A stretch of DNA of 39,932 nt. It comes from a virus. The position numbers were made by a program, and so were the translations under genes. Positions 4,486 through 17,826 of the stretch are shown one piece after another. The stretch lies in the IMG/VR virus record IMGVR_UViG_3300035111_000018, positions 1-39,932 of that record. One strand, written 5' to 3'. Numbering within the stretch: the first letter of the stretch is position 1; every line of letters begins with the position of its first letter. The notes beneath the pieces were generated by a model that saw only the letters and a program-made list of their open reading frames with translations, had not been told where the DNA came from and searched no databases.

Positions 4486-4738
4486 CAAAGTGTTCTTTTG
4501 CAGGCTAATTCTTTTAATTGTTTTGATGAAAATTGAAGACTCACTTCATCAAAATAGATAGACATGTCAGCCATTGCCAGATGGCCATCATAAACAAGAT
4601 CAACTAAAGTAACGAATGAGTCGTAACCGTTGAAATTGCTGCTGATTGCTCCGTTTTTTCCTTCACAAATCCAAATGGCTGGTTAAGACCAATTGAGAAA
4701 CTGAAGAGGATTGCGATAACATAAATTGTTTTTTTCAT
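4470..4738 (-). pseudogene. Small secreted protein gene, apparently frameshifted
   Basis: From the ATG at 4738 the first frame gives a signal peptide (MKKTIYVIAILFSFSIGLNQ) but stops at 4604-4606 after 44 codons. The -1 frame is open from just after a TAA at about residue 19 to a TAA at 4470-4472. It reads like genuine protein, with IWICEGKNGAIS, NFNGYDSFVTLVDLVYDG, SIYFDEVSLQF and KELACKRTLWLDGL. Signal peptide in one frame and a mature domain in the next, ending at a terminator, indicate one gene with a one-base indel. A canonical slippery heptamer is not evident (GGAAAAAAC lies in the overlap), so decay or a sequencing error is more likely than programmed frameshifting. Confidence 0.6.
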
Positions 4739-4743
4739 AATTT

Positions 4744-4751
4744 TAATTTTG
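4744..4751 (+). promoter_or_regulatory. Possible -7 promoter element (TAATTTTG)
   Basis: TAATTTTG matches the Bacteroidetes -7 consensus TAnnTTTG and lies 22 bases before the ATG at 4774. The only TTG upstream at plausible distance (4726-4728) is 15 bases away, shorter than usual, so this is tentative. Confidence 0.3.
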
Positions 4752-4773
4752 TTTAAACAGAGACTAAAATACT

Positions 4774-5364
4774 ATGAAATACTGGAAAGAAATAGTAATC
4801 CTGATTTTAATTCTATTAATAGGGTCATTCTACCTACTACACACAGAGAAGTCAAACAGCGCTGAGCTAAAGATAAAAGGACTAAAGGCAGACAACAGAG
4901 AATCAGCAAAGCGCTACGACTCATTACAGGCCATACAATCGATCAAAGAAGTTAAGTGGCATAAAGACTCGCTTAATATGGCGATCGATAATCAGAAGCT
5001 AACTAAAGACAATGCCAGGCTGCAGCGAAGAGTTGCTGAAACAAGATCCGTTAAAGAAGTTCAAGAGGCTATTGATTCTATCCCCCAGGTCGCGGAGGCT
5101 TTCAACGCGGATGACTCACTAGCACTTGGATTAAAGCAGCAAGTCGATACACTTACCAATCAATTAACAAGACAAGCCGATAACTATAAAGCTCAATTAA
5201 TTATCTCCGAAGCTAAAAACAAAGAATTGAAAGGACAGCTTGTAAATGATGAAGCTGTAATTGAAGAACAGGAAAAGCAACTAAAGAAACACAAGTTCGT
5301 TGGCAAGTTAAAGACTATCGGAATAGGGGTAGCTTTTATTTTGTGGCTTGCTGTTGGGCTTTAA
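4774..5364 (+). CDS. Spanin-like coiled-coil membrane protein
   Basis: 196 residues: an N-terminal membrane helix (about 8-23), a long highly charged helical region (about 28-175) with heptad-like Leu/Ile spacing, and a second hydrophobic segment at the C-terminus (GIGVAFILWLAVGL). An N-terminal anchor plus a periplasmic coiled coil is the i-spanin (Rz) layout; a second terminal helix would suit a one-protein spanin bridging both membranes. The placement after the endolysin supports a role in outer-membrane disruption. Its last 29 bases overlap, tail to tail, the last gene of the minus-strand operon. No lipoprotein partner frame was found inside it. Confidence 0.65.
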   Translation: MKYWKEIVILILILLIGSFYLLHTEKSNSAELKIKGLKADNRESAKRYDSLQAIQSIKEVKWHKDSLNMAIDNQKLTKDNARLQRRVAETRSVKEVQEAIDSIPQVAEAFNADDSLALGLKQQVDTLTNQLTRQADNYKAQLIISEAKNKELKGQLVNDEAVIEEQEKQLKKHKFVGKLKTIGIGVAFILWLAVGL

Positions 5365-5518
5365 TCGCCGCATCTAAAACAAATGCAATTGTTTCCTGAA
5401 TATCATTAACCATCATTTTTGCTGATTCTAGGTCAGTAACTTCTTCTATTAGATCAAGTGCTTTATTGAGTTTTCGAAGCGTTTCAATAAGTTTGTATGA
5501 TTTTTCTTTATCTGTCAT
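5336..5518 (-). CDS. Small helical protein, unknown (last gene of early operon)
   Basis: 60 residues, almost entirely predicted helix (KLIETLRKLNKALDLIEEV; IAFVLDAAIKAQQQATK). It starts inside the previous stop (ATGA at 5515-5518) and ends within the convergent spanin-like gene. No family recognised. It is the final gene of the long leftward operon. Confidence 0.65.
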   Translation of the reverse strand: MTDKEKSYKLIETLRKLNKALDLIEEVTDLESAKMMVNDIQETIAFVLDAAIKAQQQATK

Positions 5519-5769
5519 TGCTGGTTTGTTGATTGGTCTTTAATAATGTGATTGCGCCATTCGGGATAGAAAGCATTAAGTTCCTCTTCACCGAATCCAC
5601 CACGTTCATTTATTCGTTGTGCAGATTGTCCAGGAAATAGCATTTCATAATTACGCCATGCCATGATATGAGCAAACCAAGAAATTTTTAAATAATATCC
5701 ATTACCGCCAGATATCTGAGTAGTTGCATGGCCGGGTAATTTTTTAGCAATCATTTCTTTCAAATCCAT
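5515..5769 (-). CDS. Small protein, unknown
   Basis: 84 residues: a basic N-terminus (MDLKEMIAKKLPGHA), a GGNGYYLKISWF stretch and an aromatic, mixed-charge C-terminal half. Preceded by a 124-base gap without a gene and coupled to the next gene by ATGA. No recognisable domain. Confidence 0.65.
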   Translation of the reverse strand: MDLKEMIAKKLPGHATTQISGGNGYYLKISWFAHIMAWRNYEMLFPGQSAQRINERGGFGEEELNAFYPEWRNHIIKDQSTNQQ

Positions 5770-7970: not shown

Positions 7971-8598
7971 TTGTTTTTAATTCAAAAAGTCCTTGCCATG
8001 AATTTGATATACTCTCATTAATCATTTTTATTGCCGTTTCCTCACCATATTCTGAAAGCTTTTTTAATGCAGCTTGTTCGGATAACGCCGATCGATAGGG
8101 TTTTTTTATGTCCCCCCTATATTGTTTCCACAACGACCAATGACGTATGAAGTTTTCACTTGTAAAAGGAAAAACAATTTCATCTCCTTTTAATAAATCA
8201 TTTTCATTTACATCTTCATTTCCCATACGGTTACCCGTATGCATAACCTTTGGGTTATCCTTTAGGTTTTTTTTAGCTTTACCTTTAGGTTTTTCTTTTT
8301 TAGGTCTACCGCCCAAATTACCGTTTAATCGCCTACTTTCGGTAAAGTTGTTTCTTCTAGTGGTCTCAAGCTCTAATCGCTCATTGTACCAAAGGCCTTT
8401 TTCGTCTATCTTAAATTTTAACCTAAGCTTATCCGAAATTGAACCTACTATAAACCTAATGGTTTCTTCATCAAGCCTTCCCTGCTGATGCATCTGGCAA
8501 AGGATAGTTATATACTTACCCCTCTCTTCGAAGGGCATTGTCTGAACCCCAACAATGAAGTCCTGAGAATAAAATAAAAAGGCTGGATCTTTAGCCAT
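7888..8598 (-). CDS. Replication initiator-like protein (DUF1376/Lin1244-type N-terminus)
   Basis: 236 residues from ATG 8598, chosen because MAKDPAFLFYSQDFIVGVQT begins the conserved domain; an upstream ATG at 8640 would add 14 atypical residues. The N-terminal part (FEERGKYITILCQMHQQG, then WYNERLELE) matches the winged-helix module of phage replisome organisers. A basic Lys/Pro linker follows (GGRPKKEKPKGKAKK), then a C-terminal helical part (ALSEQAALKKLSEYGEETAI) like those that recruit helicase. It probably binds the phage origin and loads the host helicase. Overlaps the upstream HNH gene by 8 bases and the downstream gene by 83. Confidence 0.75.
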   Translation of the reverse strand: MAKDPAFLFYSQDFIVGVQTMPFEERGKYITILCQMHQQGRLDEETIRFIVGSISDKLRLKFKIDEKGLWYNERLELETTRRNNFTESRRLNGNLGGRPKKEKPKGKAKKNLKDNPKVMHTGNRMGNEDVNENDLLKGDEIVFPFTSENFIRHWSLWKQYRGDIKKPYRSALSEQAALKKLSEYGEETAIKMINESISNSWQGLFELKTNGTGTNSTAKKGITAEGTRDRLNSYTD

Positions 8599-9165: not shown

Positions 9166-9663
9166 TTAAAATATAGTCTTCATGCCCATTATTATTTTGC
9201 ATTCTCCTTTGTATCCTTTCTGAAAATGGAAGTTACCAACAGAGAACCCAAATGGAAAGCCTATAAGCGATCCTGAGCCGTATATAATCATAGATTTTAC
9301 CCCCCCCCATTTGTTTATCATCTCCATAATTACCTGTCGCTGGAAGACCTTATTTGTAGGCACAAGGAAGCTTACATTTTGAGCGATGGTAAACGAATGT
9401 TCAAGGAATTCTTTGAAGTTTGAATAAGGTGGATTCCCTATAATCCAATCAACTGGTTCTTTATATTCGAAAAAGTCTTTACCTTCTGTTATCTCGCAAT
9501 AATCTGAATTAAGCATTTGATTGTAAAAGGAGCCATCACCCCTGCAAGGATCTAAGCATTTTCCGACTGGCTGCAGAAATTCAATTATTTGCTTAGATAC
9601 CTCAACTGGGGTATAAACCACATCTGATTGAGGCACAAACCTATCGAACAGTTCTTTTTGCAT
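9166..9663 (-). CDS. N6-adenine DNA methyltransferase with a G9 tract
   Basis: 165 residues. Motif X-like YTPVEVSKQIIEFL (17-30), the SAM-binding motif I DPCRGDGSF (38-46) and the catalytic motif IV GNPPYSNF (76-83) identify an amino-methyltransferase acting on adenine. The end (IGFPFGFSVGNFHFQKGYKG) resembles the C-termini of compact phage methylases, so the gene looks complete. No cognate restriction enzyme is nearby; protection from host restriction is the likely role. A run of nine G (W119-G-G-V122) lies in the second half, a classic slippage site. The gene starts within the end of the preceding 49-residue gene (23-base overlap). Confidence 0.85.
   Translation of the reverse strand: MQKELFDRFVPQSDVVYTPVEVSKQIIEFLQPVGKCLDPCRGDGSFYNQMLNSDYCEITEGKDFFEYKEPVDWIIGNPPYSNFKEFLEHSFTIAQNVSFLVPTNKVFQRQVIMEMINKWGGVKSMIIYGSGSLIGFPFGFSVGNFHFQKGYKGECKIIMGMKTIF
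9300..9308 (-). repeat. G9 homopolymer in the methyltransferase gene
   Basis: Nine consecutive C on the plus strand, that is nine G in the coding strand, spanning codons 119-122 (Trp-Gly-Gly-Val). It is the longest G/C homopolymer I saw in the window. A one-base change would truncate or alter the last ~45 residues. Confidence 0.9.
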
Positions 9664-9790
9664 TTATCTTTTTAGTTAACCCCGTTAAAACTCTGCTTAT
9701 CTTCTCAGTCTTAGACCATCCGGTATTCTCGTTTATCTTTGATAGATGGAACTTTAATAGGTTCCTTAATAGGCGCTGGCGTGGCTTCAT
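9641..9790 (-). CDS. 49-residue basic peptide
   Basis: ATG at 9790 overlaps the upstream TGA as ATGA (9787-9790) and the frame ends at 9641-9643, 23 bases inside the methyltransferase gene. The product is strongly basic (MKPRQRLLRNLLKFHLSK; TKKINAKRTVR), helical, and fills an otherwise unexplained 120-base gap. It may bind nucleic acid; no family recognised. Confidence 0.55.
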   Translation of the reverse strand: MKPRQRLLRNLLKFHLSKINENTGWSKTEKISRVLTGLTKKINAKRTVR

Positions 9791-9999
9791 ATTAAACCAA
9801 GTTCTTTAAGCTTATACAAATCTTCACGTGTCAGAATTACTGAGTGAATAGTAAACTCAGAGTTAGCGAATTCAGGCTCACTAATTTTAGTTAGCGAAAC
9901 CCCTCCATCTGCAAGGCTTTCAGGATACCATCCAAGAAATTTACTTCCGTCTTGTATTGCGTCATCTACAATAATGTGTTCGTCAAGCTTTAGTATCAT
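9787..9999 (-). CDS. Small protein, unknown
   Basis: 70 residues, acidic, mixed strand and helix, ending in a helical REDLYKLKELGLI. It starts five bases after the upstream HNH gene and is coupled by ATGA to the following peptide gene. No recognisable domain. Confidence 0.65.
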   Translation of the reverse strand: MILKLDEHIIVDDAIQDGSKFLGWYPESLADGGVSLTKISEPEFANSEFTIHSVILTREDLYKLKELGLI

Positions 10000-14349: not shown

Positions 14350-14973
14350 TTAAAGTTTTGTTTCTTCTTCAGCACATCTTTTAATATCAGCCAATGCCGT
14401 TTTGTTATCCTCATAAAATCTCACCGGCGAAACTTTAATTGAAGATGAGGCGTGGTAAATTTGCATGGCCGCAAAAGGTGTGCTTGTCTCCTGTTCAAGT
14501 TTTTTACCCTGCTCACCGGATAAGAATACAACCCATCCAGCGCGACAATGCGTAGTTTCGCAAGTATGCCAAGTATCCATGTTTAAAGCTTCTGGATTAG
14601 AGACTGCATCAAGAATTTTTTGATGTATATTCTCAATCACTGGAATAGCAGGAAATCCAATATTGGTTTGCTCATTCTGTTCTACTGGCTTTGCATTTTT
14701 TAAGTCAGAGCAGCGAGAGCAGTCAGAGCAGCGATAGCAGTCAGAGCAGCGATAGCAGTCAGAGCAGCGATAGCAGTCAGAGCAGTCAGAGCAACGAGAG
14801 CAGCCAGAGCAGCGAGAGCAGTCAGAGCAGTCAGAGCAGTTCCAACAACCTTTATTAGTCTCGTTTTGTTTTTCAAAATCTAGAGATTCTTCTGAAAACT
14901 CTTTCGATACCCCATTAACGTCTTTATCTACACGAGATAAAAACTCTAAATAGGAATTGAATATTTGTGTCAT
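14350..14973 (-). CDS. Cysteine-triplet repeat protein with conserved C-terminal domain
   Basis: 207 residues. After a charged N-terminus, residues 43-90 are 16 uninterrupted C-x-x triplets, mostly CSD, CSR and CYR. The C-terminal domain (about 115-207) contains LNMDTWHTCETTHCRAGWVV, GEQGKKLEQETSTPFAAMQI and YHASSS. I recognise this as a domain recurrent in phage early proteins, without known function. A Cys every third residue suggests a metal-loaded or helically coiled repeat like a triplet beta-solenoid. No signal peptide, so it should act in the reducing cytoplasm. It follows a 32-residue gene without spacing. Confidence 0.8.
   Translation of the reverse strand: MTQIFNSYLEFLSRVDKDVNGVSKEFSEESLDFEKQNETNKGCWNCSDCSDCSRCSGCSRCSDCSDCYRCSDCYRCSDCYRCSDCSRCSDLKNAKPVEQNEQTNIGFPAIPVIENIHQKILDAVSNPEALNMDTWHTCETTHCRAGWVVFLSGEQGKKLEQETSTPFAAMQIYHASSSIKVSPVRFYEDNKTALADIKRCAEEETKL
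14704..14847 (-). repeat. In-frame 9/18-base coding repeat (C-x-x triplets)
   Basis: The plus strand shows repeated tcagagcag and tcagagcagcgatagcag units. The repeat encodes 16 C-x-x triplets. The near-identity at DNA level points to recent expansion by slippage or unequal recombination, so length may vary between related phages. Confidence 0.9.
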
Positions 14974-15306: not shown

Positions 15307-15549
15307 TTAGTCTTTTAAATAACCCTCACCTTCACAGAAAGAACAGATCACAGGACAGTCACCTAATGTATCATGATGTCCTTCCTTTTCACCATTGCCG
15401 TCACACATATCACATTTGATTATTTGTTCTGAATAGCGGCGGCAGACTTCTGGCCAAATAGAAGGCCAATGTACTACTCCACTAGTACGAAGATGTTCAT
15501 CTGAAATTTCGCTCTTTATTTTTTCAAGTAATTCTAAATTCAGTTTCAT
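15307..15549 (-). CDS. DnaJ-type zinc-finger small protein
   Basis: 80 residues; the C-terminal half has CDMCDGNGEKEGHH and CSFCEGEGYLKD, two CxxCxGxG motifs as in the DnaJ central zinc finger. No J domain. The N-terminal part is helical (LLEKIKSEISDEHLRTSG). Presumably a zinc-binding adaptor; partner unknown. Confidence 0.7.
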   Translation of the reverse strand: MKLNLELLEKIKSEISDEHLRTSGVVHWPSIWPEVCRRYSEQIIKCDMCDGNGEKEGHHDTLGDCPVICSFCEGEGYLKD

Positions 15550-15758
15550 ATAATTTTCAGTTCAAAGTCAAAATATAATTCTTCATGCAATGCTTTTACT
15601 AAGTCATCCTGCCAGCCATCTCCGAATGATTCATTAATAAACCAAGCATTTTTTATAACTATTTTAATAGGCTGAAATGTGCAGTATTCAATTTCATATT
15701 CAAAAGTGAATATGAAAGGCTCCCCGATTGTGTTGTATATGGTGGTGGTTAGAGTCAT
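15546..15758 (-). CDS. Strand-rich small protein, unknown
   Basis: 70 residues alternating hydrophobic and polar residues (FIFTFEYEIEYCTFQPIKIV), followed by a helix (WQDDLVKALHEELYFDF). ATGA junctions on both sides. Probably one small alpha/beta domain; no family recognised. Confidence 0.65.
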   Translation of the reverse strand: MTLTTTIYNTIGEPFIFTFEYEIEYCTFQPIKIVIKNAWFINESFGDGWQDDLVKALHEELYFDFELKII

Positions 15759-16036
15759 AGCTCACCCTCTAAACAAGCTAGTAACAATGTTATATTTTCA
15801 CGCATTGGAGTCATCTTGCCTTGTGAGTAGATATCTATATCTTTTGCTGTTTCTCCTGATGCCCACCAAGTGGAACAAAACCCAGCATCTTCTAATTCTT
15901 CTATCTCATCATCCGAAGGGCATAATAAATCCCAATTTTTTAGATGACTAAAATGCTCGCACAAACCATTTTCACCATCTATACCGTGTTCTATGAATTG
16001 ATGATATTTATTAAGTATAGGCGTTGCCTGTTTCAT
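15755..16036 (-). CDS. First gene of the leftward early operon, unknown
   Basis: 93 residues, acidic, with two Trp-rich segments (HLKNWDLLCPSDDEIEELED; FCSTWWASGETAKD) and a helical C-terminus. It is the promoter-proximal gene: a Bacteroidetes-type promoter lies 35-65 bases upstream. Being first, it is probably made earliest and in high amount; an anti-host or regulatory role is possible but not shown. Confidence 0.7.
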   Translation of the reverse strand: MKQATPILNKYHQFIEHGIDGENGLCEHFSHLKNWDLLCPSDDEIEELEDAGFCSTWWASGETAKDIDIYSQGKMTPMRENITLLLACLEGEL

Positions 16037-16069
16037 ATCCGTTTCGTTTAATTGTCTGCGTTATGAAAT

Positions 16070-16100
16070 CAAAAGTAGGCAACTGCCAATTACTTTGCAA
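16070..16100 (-). promoter_or_regulatory. Leftward early promoter (Bacteroidetes type)
   Basis: On the minus strand TACTTTTG (16077-16070) matches the -7 consensus TAnnTTTG, and TTG (16100-16098) lies 20 bases upstream as the -33 element. It is followed ~34 bases later by the first ATG of the 10.7-kb leftward operon and is the only strong candidate I found for it. Confidence 0.7.
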
Positions 16101-16136
16101 GCGTTTAGTAAAATATTTTATTTATTTTCTTTGTAG

Positions 16137-16166
16137 TTGTTTATTTGCAATTGTTTTGTAGATTTG
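16137..16166 (+). promoter_or_regulatory. Rightward promoter (Bacteroidetes type), possibly leaderless
   Basis: TTG (16137-16139), 19 bases, then TAGATTTG (16159-16166) fits the -33/-7 consensus. The ATG of the next gene is only five bases downstream, so transcription should start at or beside the A of the ATG, giving a leaderless or nearly leaderless mRNA. Confidence 0.7.
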
Positions 16167-16170
16167 AAGC

Positions 16171-16320
16171 ATGATTGACGAGAAGAGATTAAAAACGGTC
16201 GCAAATCACGCTAAAGAAAAAGGTAAGCACCGAAATTGGATATATCATCTTATCAAAGCAGGAAAGATTGAACCTATTAATATAGATGGCATTCTATTTA
16301 TCAAGCAGGATAAGAAATGA
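16171..16320 (+). CDS. Small HTH/excisionase-like DNA-binding protein
   Basis: 49 residues. TVANHAKEKGKHRNWIYHLI reads as a MerR/excisionase-like helix-turn-helix, followed by KAGKIEPINIDGILFIKQDK, the strand wing that in this class carries xGKIExxxIDGxxFI. It is the first rightward gene, right behind the promoter and facing the leftward operon. A switch regulator controlling the divergent promoters is therefore a natural hypothesis. No integrase is present, so an excisionase role is unlikely. The stop overlaps the next ATG (ATGA). Confidence 0.7.
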   Translation: MIDEKRLKTVANHAKEKGKHRNWIYHLIKAGKIEPINIDGILFIKQDKK

Positions 16321-16478
16321 CAGATCGCGAAAAAACCAGGCAATGGATTGAAAAGCTTAAGCAGGAATGTAAGGGTTTAACACCTAAACAACGTGCTGAA
16401 ATTGAAAGCTTCGCAAAATACAAAGCATGGCAAGCAATTGAATTGAAATTTAACGATATACACGCTCAGGCTGAATAA
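16317..16478 (+). CDS. 53-residue helical protein, unknown
   Basis: Starts in an ATGA overlap with the HTH gene. Charged helical sequence (MTDREKTRQWIEKLKQECKG, LTPKQRAEIESFAKYKAWQA). It ends directly at the first base of a long stem-loop (16479). Possibly a partner of the upstream regulator. Confidence 0.65.
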   Translation: MTDREKTRQWIEKLKQECKGLTPKQRAEIESFAKYKAWQAIELKFNDIHAQAE

Positions 16479-16546
16479 GATCCTATTGTGTGTGGCTTGT
16501 GGTAAACCTGTAAAACCCACTTCTAAGAGCCTTCAGGTATAGGATC
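16479..16546 (+). ncRNA. Structured RNA element: three nested helices
   Basis: Perfect 8-bp closing stem GATCCTAT (16479-16486)/ATAGGATC (16539-16546). Nested inside are GGCT (16494-16497)/AGCC (16528-16531) and GTGG (16499-16502)/CCAC (16517-16520). No frame crosses it and no T-run follows, so it is not a simple terminator. Could be a cis-regulatory element, processing site or small RNA. Confidence 0.5.
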
Positions 16547-16568
16547 AGCCGCTCTATGGATGATGACA

Positions 16569-16591
16569 GGGGCTAATAGTTGGTTAGCCCC
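16569..16591 (+). other. Strong 8-bp hairpin with 7-base loop
   Basis: GGGGCTAA (16569-16576), loop TAGTTGG, TTAGCCCC (16584-16591): perfect stem. The following TACTTTGAAAG is too poor in T for an efficient intrinsic terminator. It lies 13 bases before the tRNA-like element and may act in processing or as a weak terminator. Confidence 0.55.
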
Positions 16592-16604
16592 TACTTTGAA
16601 AGAC

Positions 16605-16731
16605 GCGGATGTGGCGGAACCGGTAGACGCTGCGATAAATGGCTGAAGTCTTTACCAACAGACATGTAGGTAGTAGAATACGCGCAAGGTTGATGGACTT
16701 TGTATTGGATGTTCGAGTCATCCCATCCGCA
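16605..16731 (+). tRNA. tRNA-Leu-like element of abnormal length (127 bases)
   Basis: The ends are those of a tRNA: 7-bp acceptor stem GCGGATG (16605-16611)/CATCCGC (16724-16730), discriminator A, and a tRNA-Leu-type D arm (GCGGAACCGGTAGACGC). The T arm is perfect, GGATG-TTCGAGT-CATCC. Between D and T arms there are about 75 bases, where a class II tRNA has about 40-45. I find no normal 5-bp, 7-loop anticodon arm; GCG/TGCG after the D arm could pair with CGCA at about 16682-16685 across a long insert. CCA is not encoded (ACAA follows). It may be an interrupted tRNA, a pseudo-tRNA or a tRNA-like structural RNA; the anticodon cannot be assigned. Confidence 0.6.
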
Positions 16732-16780
16732 CAAACACTTTGAAGAACGGAATGTCGGATAGTAACCGGCAAAATTGTTG

Positions 16781-16809
16781 AAGGGGGCTGTAAATTGTAT
16801 CGCTCCCTT
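16781..16809 (+). terminator. Weak terminator-like hairpin
   Basis: AAGGGGGC (16781-16788) pairs with GCTCCCTT (16802-16809), eight pairs including one G-T, loop 13, followed by ATTTAAAA rather than a clean T-run. Could end the tRNA-like transcript or regulate the next gene 27 bases downstream. Confidence 0.4.
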
Positions 16810-16835
16810 ATTTAAAAAGAAACTAACGCAGGGAC

Positions 16836-17432
16836 TTGGCGAAGCAGTCTAAAACGAATATGAATCTATTACATGAATTTTTCAACAGCAGATCAGATGC
16901 AGCAACACCGTTACTTGCTGAAGATCAGGAGCGCCTAGAAAGCGAATTCAAGGCATTTCAAGACAACTTCTACAAAATAGAAAAGCTTGAAGATATTACA
17001 GACCCTGAATCGCAATTCGTATGGATTGATGATTACGTTGACGTTAAAACAGGAACTGGGCCAGGAACAGAATTGAGAGCAGGCAGGGTAATTAAGAAGC
17101 ATAGCGCTATTGACGATTATCCTTATGCTTATGATCTTGAATTCACCATTTCAATTGATGATGAAAACAAAAAGCGCCACACAAGCAGGATTCATAATGT
17201 GGCTACCGGCCTTTGTGTTAAGAGAACTCCTAGCTACATCGAAAGACAGAGTATTGAGGATCAAAAACTAGGTAAAGAACTTGAAGACTTACGCCGCTGG
17301 AAGAAAGAATTCAGTGACGAATATTTTCCAATCATTGAATTCATGCAGGAAAATGACAAGGACTTGCGCATCGGTAATAGTATCAGAGAAAAGGTGCTAA
17401 ATATTTTAAAGAATCATTTTGGTAAAGAATAG
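16836..17432 (+). CDS. Protein of unknown function, TTG or internal ATG start
   Basis: 198 residues if translation begins at TTG 16836 (MAKQSKTN); an ATG at 16860 (MNLLHEFFNSRSDAATPLL) gives 190 residues. It is acidic, with helical ends and a strand-rich centre (FVWIDDYVDVKTGTGPGTEL; YDLEFTISIDDENKKRHTSR). The C-terminus is helical and basic (REKVLNILKNHFGKE). No family recognised. It is alone between two hairpins, with a strong terminator right after it, so it is probably its own transcription unit. Confidence 0.7.
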   Translation: MAKQSKTNMNLLHEFFNSRSDAATPLLAEDQERLESEFKAFQDNFYKIEKLEDITDPESQFVWIDDYVDVKTGTGPGTELRAGRVIKKHSAIDDYPYAYDLEFTISIDDENKKRHTSRIHNVATGLCVKRTPSYIERQSIEDQKLGKELEDLRRWKKEFSDEYFPIIEFMQENDKDLRIGNSIREKVLNILKNHFGKE

Positions 17433-17445
17433 ATTGGATTGATTG

Positions 17446-17481
17446 AAGTAGTCCTGTTCAAGCAGGCTACTTTATTTTTTT
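17446..17481 (+). terminator. Rho-independent terminator
   Basis: AAGTAGtCCTG (17446-17456, one bulged T) pairs with CAGGCTACTT (17463-17472), loop TTCAAG, followed by TATTTTTTT. A clear intrinsic terminator 13 bases after the stop at 17432. Confidence 0.8.
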
Positions 17482-17503
17482 GAAACTAACATAGAAAGTC
17501 TTT

Positions 17504-17689
17504 ATGAAAAATAAATTATATAAAGTTTGGTGTGAGTGGGATATTGGCCTTGAAAAAAAAGTATTTAAGAGCAAAGAAGAGGCCTTAGAAGCAGCAAAAC
17601 AAGCCTTAGTCGAATCAGATATTGAGGATAATTTTGATGAATTATTGACAGAAGGATATATCGGTACGGAAGAAATTGAAATGGCATGA
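17504..17689 (+). CDS. Small acidic protein, unknown
   Basis: 61 residues: strand-like N-terminus (MKNKLYKVWCEWDIGLEKKV) followed by a helix (SKEEALEAAKQALVESDIED). It overlaps the next gene by ATGA at 17686-17689. It is the first gene after the terminator at 17481; no promoter match is obvious in the 23-base gap. Confidence 0.65.
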   Translation: MKNKLYKVWCEWDIGLEKKVFKSKEEALEAAKQALVESDIEDNFDELLTEGYIGTEEIEMA

Positions 17690-17826
17690 CAACATACGCG
17701 CCCAAATTTCCTGATCATACAAAACCATTCACGGCACCATTTGGCCCAATTGCTGAATATGAGCGAATTGTTTTATTGCGAAATTTGAAGGTAAGCATTG
17801 GAGCTAAGTTAAATTACGGATCATGA
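17686..17826 (+). CDS. 46-residue protein, unknown
   Basis: ATGA junctions on both sides (17686-17689 and 17823-17826). Pro/Phe-rich start (MTTYAPKFPDHTKPFTAPFG) then a basic helix and GAKLNYGS. The exact fit between two genes supports it. No family recognised. Confidence 0.6.
   Translation: MTTYAPKFPDHTKPFTAPFGPIAEYERIVLLRNLKVSIGAKLNYGS

Follow-up and report, generated by a model that had tools for sequence, protein, structure and literature searches.

A tRNA-Leu-like shell with a putative cargo domain in a hypervariable non-coding cassette of a virus

The stretch of DNA analyzed here (the window; W in comparisons) is a virus record from IMG/VR, 39,932 bases long. It contains a real non-coding stretch, whose central element is a tRNA-Leu-like shell carrying another domain, the cargo, where the anticodon arm would be. 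We consider this element very probably a functional tRNA-shell RNA. The structure and modularity of the cassette that holds it are well supported; its processing and its function in trans we infer.

The locus and its structures

An earlier note on this DNA had described four structures in a stretch without a credible gene (16479-16836). All four were found at the coordinates given there; no + strand ORF of at least 60 aa starts within 16479-16835, and none is kept in relatives from 16479 to about 16836 (Table 1). Region 15500-17800 gave no blastn match among 50,697 GenBank phages. At the start of the rightward transcript, 5′ of the stretch, are two ORFs that overlap, one of 49 aa and the next of 53 aa; conservation of the first in L024 extends up to the hairpin, while the second is absent from the corresponding place there. 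The candidate promoter matches TTG/TAnnTTTG, which we take to be the Bacteroidota-type consensus, and a Bacteroidota host is suspected, this promoter-like sequence being the sole basis. The next gene, orf16860, is 83% identical in L002 and 77% in L003 and has no Pfam or PHROG match. The packaging genes of the window are an Sf6-type small subunit and a Terminase_3 large subunit. The - strand at 14350-14973 encodes a protein in which cysteine repeats of the CSDC/CSRC type follow one another over a long run; L015 has part of it as well.

Table 1. Features of the cassette locus, in window coordinates
Feature	Position	Strand	Description
Promoter-like sequence	16137-16166	+	TTG-N19-TAGATTTG; candidate, read from sequence
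ORF1	16171-16320	+	49 aa; putative small DNA-binding-like protein
ORF2	16317-16478	+	53 aa; ATGA overlap with ORF1
Three-helix element	16479-16546	+	outer stem GATCCTAT/ATAGGATC, loop GUAAACCUGUAAAA
Module-start hairpin	16569-16591	+	GGGGCTAATAGTTGGTTAGCCCC, loop AGUUG
Hairpin tail	16592-16604	+	TACTTTGAAAGAC, 13 nt; invariant in four phages
tRNA-Leu-like shell	16605-16731	+	127 nt
Shell acceptor	16605-16611/16724-16730	+	7 bp
Shell D arm	16614-16630	+	stem 3 bp
Cargo domain	16631-16684	+	54 nt; replaces anticodon arm
Cargo invariant single strand	16635-16652	+	AUAAAUGGCUGAAGUCUU, 18 nt
Cargo covarying hairpin	16653-16672	+	4+3 bp
Shell long variable arm	16685-16702	+	7 bp
Shell T arm	16707-16723	+	stem 5 bp
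Shell discriminator	16731	+	A
Small hairpin	16754-16770	+	GTCGG/CCGGC; predicted fold, between shell and last hairpin
Terminal hairpin	16781-16809	+	followed by TTATTTRAAAAGA in W, L002, L003, L024 and L147
orf16860	16860-17432	+	190 aa; next gene in W, L002 and L003

Folding energies were compared with 200 dinucleotide shuffles. The three-helix element (-18.9 kcal/mol) scored z -2.2, with 6 of the 200 shuffles equally good, the module-start hairpin z -3.1 (0/200) and the terminal hairpin z -3.0 (1/200). The tRNA-like element, folded as 16603-16735, scored z -1.5 (12/200) and would not stand out by energy alone. Comparison of relatives gives much stronger evidence for three of the structures: the 8-bp hairpin, the last hairpin and the tRNA-like element itself. 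The module-start hairpin, with eight Watson-Crick pairs and one U.G, shows two one-sided changes in relatives, both with pairing kept. The three-helix element, whose loop GUAAACCUGUAAAA is similar to a loop in L147, is the weakest of the four structures.

ARAGORN called no tRNA or tmRNA in the window, and Rfam at curated cut-offs called nothing there, with no hit for tmRNA; the best sub-threshold match is to tRNA, at 14.5 bits (cut-off 29), over the 3′ half of the element. Across the window and the related loci, Rfam 15 at curated and permissive thresholds assigned these elements to no family, and the GOLLD and ROOL models matched nowhere. By membership the element is not a tRNA, having no anticodon arm and falling below the Rfam and ARAGORN cut-offs, and it is not a tmRNA.

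Three other readings of the small hairpins were rejected: a promoter at TACTTTG in the hairpin tail (wrong spacing), a small peptide across the last hairpin (16775-16852; the L002 and L024 frames are without a start codon), and a CRISPR-repeat mimic. The hairpin-plus-tail pattern has 0 matches in 84,980 host genomes, hence no known host repeat is shaped like it. The sequence GGAAAGAC resembles 23S rRNA near 2056-2063, presumably by chance.

Cassette boundaries and the tRNA-like shell

An exact scan of 2.9 million viral contigs for the hairpin tail AGCCCCTACTTTGAAAGAC returned L021, L022, L023 (the L003 contig) and L024, each with the whole hairpin; L022 and L024 are near-identical in the hairpin region. 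A second scan, for the last hairpin's tail, gave L147, L022, L023, L024 and the L002 contig, which is also that of L004. Between these landmarks the tRNA-like element is found in W and L021, and other sequences in L003, L022/L024, L002 and L147.

W and L021 share one block of 87% identity, 16568-16732, consisting of hairpin and tRNA-like element, with no similarity flanking it on either side. These homology limits are the cassette edges, and therefore hairpin and shell moved as a single unit. The block shared by W with L003, L022 and L024 ends at 16604, one base before the tRNA-like element, so that hairpin and 13-nt tail form a unit with an exchangeable module next to it. These alignments show that the constant hairpin and tail mark the module start; they recur in four phages, with different modules behind them. 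Identity between W and L004 ends at 16067 and returns at 16783. The L004 terminase is 99% identical to that of W (92% for terminase DNA), and L002/L004 hold a different insert at the cassette locus; the locus is therefore hypervariable, turning over much faster than its surroundings. In a second example of module exchange, L021 and L022 have a near-identical structured block of ~190 nt around a GAAAGA hairpin (AACCCAGGTTCCTAATGA...GTATCGAGGC), and the remaining modules of their islands differ. The islands of L022 and L024 also have a module of ~330 nt that CTAAACAGG/CCTGTTTAG closes and that contains a small ORF for a basic product.

The 5′ 26 nt of the shell match tRNA-Leu genes. Acceptor, D and T arms are in register in the window, and one acceptor pair (pair 2) is broken in L021. 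An anticodon arm, defined as 5 bp closing a 7-nt loop that has U33, is absent in the window by a test that finds it in 47 of 56 canonical tRNAs. Immediately 3′ of the discriminator, CCA is encoded in L021 and ACAAA in the window.

In a hand-corrected alignment of two sequences, W and L021, we counted four compensatory changes of both bases of a pair. They fall in three helices, the inserted hairpin having two and the variable arm and T stem one each. Seven of the eight pairs touched by substitution are kept, against a mean of 3.1 when substitutions are placed at random in the same columns (P = 0.007). RNAalifold on the uncorrected alignment of this pair recovers these main helices, and three of the changes it reports are two-sided. 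The four changes support the shell fold, from two sequences and thus one homologue of the cargo. Compensatory change in a homologue was a test named in the earlier note, and its reading of a functional non-coding RNA is borne out to that extent. Within the cargo, the invariant strand and the hairpin loop region could form a pseudoknot through GUCU/AGAC. The invariant 18-mer has no second site in the window at up to 3 mismatches, and autoregulation through it was rejected; looser shell or cargo patterns found, besides L021, coding sequence only.

Shells and GAAAGA hairpins in other phages

We searched the related loci and the window for shells, defined as acceptor, D-loop signature and T arm with 28-150 nt between, and found 79: 56 ARAGORN tRNAs and 23 non-canonical shells (63-169 nt), against 2 shells of any kind in a complement-only control. 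The window element, in its non-coding island, is one of the 23. Eighteen of these lie within 1.5 kb of a same-strand GAAAGA hairpin and none by one on the opposite strand; the loci had been fetched by the hairpin, which biases proximity and not strand. An anticodon-arm-like stem is present in 4 of the 23, a few of which may be ordinary tRNAs missed by ARAGORN, and in L096 the shell as found probably includes a distant false acceptor. Among the Leu-like shells of L194, L210, L251 and L300, identity is 82-93% for the shell but falls to 41-49%, the background level, for the cargo. Exchanging the cargo while conserving the tRNA body is therefore a pattern and not the accident of one phage.

Several other RNA-like sequences turned up at these loci. 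L251, which has tRNA shells, also has a tmRNA (9493-9958, - strand; 54 bits, above cut-off), and L173, likewise with shells, has a permuted-tmRNA-like match (220-515, - strand; 43 bits, below cut-off). The L118 region 8343-8447, with 4021 (- strand), contains an apparent shell with a second T arm in its cargo, nested in appearance. A non-coding RNA island of L060 (499-546, + strand) contains a hammerhead-ribozyme-like sequence, CCCATCTGATGAG...CGAAACCGAAAGGTCATGGG, a sub-threshold match to Rfam HH9.

The sequence GACAGCCGGAAAGACGGCA also occurs in the cassette island of L003, L021 and L022, which at the same locus have a hairpin of the form UGACA-stem-GAAAGA-stem′-A; by inspection, this hairpin is absent from the window island. 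As a 19-mer GACAGCCGGAAAGACGGCA is found in at least 120 viral contigs, where about one is estimated by chance, and the corresponding 20-mer, among the matches listed, in 33 contigs from bacterial genomes that span several phyla. Close matches occur in the cultured phages Xanthomonas FoX1 (47 nt 3′ of a tRNA), Vibrio 1.123.O and Oceanospirillum GJ44. A hairpin was distinguished from a conserved word by scanning for TGACANNNNGGAAAGACNNNNA with the N positions free, which gave 123 distinct sites, counts that include related contigs and are not independent. All four N pairs are Watson-Crick at 71 sites (89 with G.U included), against a mean of 7.9 and a maximum of 14 fully Watson-Crick sites when the 3′ arms were re-dealt. 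There are 18 different stems among the 123 sites, and because of this diversity the clear reading, despite kinship, is a genuine hairpin whose stem covaries around a GAAAGA hexaloop.

Where GAAAGA hairpins lie outside ORFs, the median length of the non-coding gap around them is 731 nt; the median over all gaps at the same loci is 181 nt. Of 263 hairpins, 98 are within ORFs of at least 100 aa (194 expected from coverage), so some hairpins are chance occurrences or some ORFs spurious; 121 have an ORF start within 80 nt. A canonical tRNA follows closely 3′ of the hairpin in 18 cases; in 19 cases the distance between hairpin and tRNA 5′ end is 3-12 nt, and greater distances are few. The hairpin matches no Rfam 15 family, and a literature search by motif sequence gave no match, though it may bear another name elsewhere. 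A second recurrent hexaloop hairpin, with loop GGCTGA (TGAATGCGCAGGCTGATGCGC), occurs in similar islands of L040, L047 and L134.

Known systems, possible function and alternatives

The closest known object to the window element is T4 species 1 RNA (rnaC), a stable, northern-validated late RNA of the tRNA cluster whose function is unknown (PMC9697503); a change in the adjoining rnaD is shared by evolved lines of a T4-like phage (PMC12685909). The rnaC sequence (NC_000866 70908-71046) folds with z -4.6; in the fold a T arm and a variable-arm-like hairpin accompany a long inserted domain and partial acceptor pairing. These features give it an architecture that looks like that of the window element, and rnaC is a phage-encoded stable RNA beside tRNAs. 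Unlike the window element, however, it has no recognizable D arm, a mismatched acceptor and unrelated sequence, and it is made late, from a tRNA cluster, whereas the window element follows the genetic switch. tRNA-Leu shares with the element acceptor, D arm, long variable arm, T arm and 5′ sequence, but the element has a 54-nt domain instead of an anticodon arm and anticodon. GOLLD and ROOL, two large structured RNAs of phages, have no known function and are frequently encoded close to tRNA islands (PMC12286853); their setting is similar but their make-up is not, the window module being a single short tRNA shell.

The explanation we lean towards is a hypervariable cassette encoding a stable small RNA that is processed like a tRNA, carries exchangeable cargo and probably acts on a host factor. 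The cassette would sit in the first rightward transcript after the genetic switch, transcribed from the promoter-like sequence of Table 1. The hairpin and 13-nt tail open the module, and the module itself is the tRNA-Leu shell with its cargo. Host enzymes, through RNase P cleavage at 16605, 3′ trimming and CCA addition, may then release a stable RNA of ~130 nt, as suggested by the shell and the CCA encoded in L021, and the tRNA body would give it stability. Of the roles proposed in the earlier note, a processed small-RNA precursor fits best, given the shell, the L021 CCA and the exact module boundaries; processing itself is presumed from sequence. The cargo, invariant strand and hairpin together, might act in trans by binding a host target, the likeliest effect being titration of a factor that serves defence or is directed at tRNA; such titration would explain module exchange among otherwise similar phages. 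That the cargo is a decoy or inhibitor of a host factor we put forward tentatively, as a possibility less probable than not. Antidefence is the leading guess for its role because of the turnover, the position behind small regulators (ORF1 in the window; small ORFs in L021 and L003; in the E. coli prophage of L191, a gene resembling a repressor and a hypothetical one ahead of the island) and the precedents for phage RNA in antidefence: phage pseudo-ToxI RNA acts against host defence (PMC3475682), and phage tRNA arrays are regarded as antidefence (PMC12803027), both functional analogies with no sequence resemblance claimed. The last hairpin may end the unit as a weak terminator or serve as leader of the next gene.

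A cis-acting leader, in which the structures control orf16860 and the late operon as terminator/antiterminator or put-like RNA, is unlikely. The stretch does separate the early switch from packaging genes that share its strand, and in other phages roughly every second GAAAGA hairpin is followed by an ORF start within 80 nt. What stands of this proposal of the earlier note is the terminal hairpin, kept in five relatives before different sequences. A leader does not explain the complete replacement of the middle module next to a downstream gene that is still 83% identical; the same cassette has a different context in L021, and a leader does not need a tRNA shell. That shell could instead be a decaying tRNA-Leu gene or the functionless remnant of an attachment site, given its tRNA-Leu-like 5′ end, the missing ARAGORN call and the lack of an encoded CCA in the window, but the compensatory changes between W and L021, a new invariant 18-nt segment, conserved module boundaries and the many further shells near the same hairpin class make this improbable.

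We give very little credence to an unusual tmRNA-like or coding element, with the cargo AUG (AUAAAUGGCUGAAG...) starting a short peptide. The shell of the window does contain an ORF of 34 codons (16639-16743), and related arrays include the L251 tmRNA and the L173 permuted-tmRNA-like hit, but in L021 the frame is shifted and stops after 11 codons, the D stem and variable arm are tRNA-like, and the window is without an Rfam tmRNA hit. Least credible of all is a packaging-related RNA, which the earlier note had also suggested and which has in its favour a position upstream of the terminase genes: the cassette is missing from a phage with 99% identical terminase, and the terminase subunits are not of the pRNA-using phi29 type.

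Beyond this clade, the exchangeable-cargo explanation extends to a broader reading that we hold with some reserve, as conceivable rather than probable: phages of bacteria from many phyla may share a modular RNA system in which the GAAAGA hairpin marks module starts, tRNA shells serve as scaffolds and the cargo is host-directed. The AGUUG-loop hairpin would also mark module starts in this clade, and T4 species 1 RNA would be one old relative. If so, the tRNA body is a natural scaffold for other RNA domains, as in RNA engineering, with cargo swapped between phages, and the function of T4 species 1 and 2 RNA, long open, becomes testable by comparison. The widespread hairpin motif is a handle for finding cassettes in culturable phages, including E. 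coli prophages (strain SE11). L191, at about 4565-5594, corresponds to this SE11 prophage, with ~1 kb of island-type sequence without an annotated gene, flanked by a small ORF behind a repressor-like gene and by the Gp157/integrase side; a repressor-like gene and a hypothetical gene precede the island. Most of the L157 query is found in 11 E. coli genomes, and part of it in 692.
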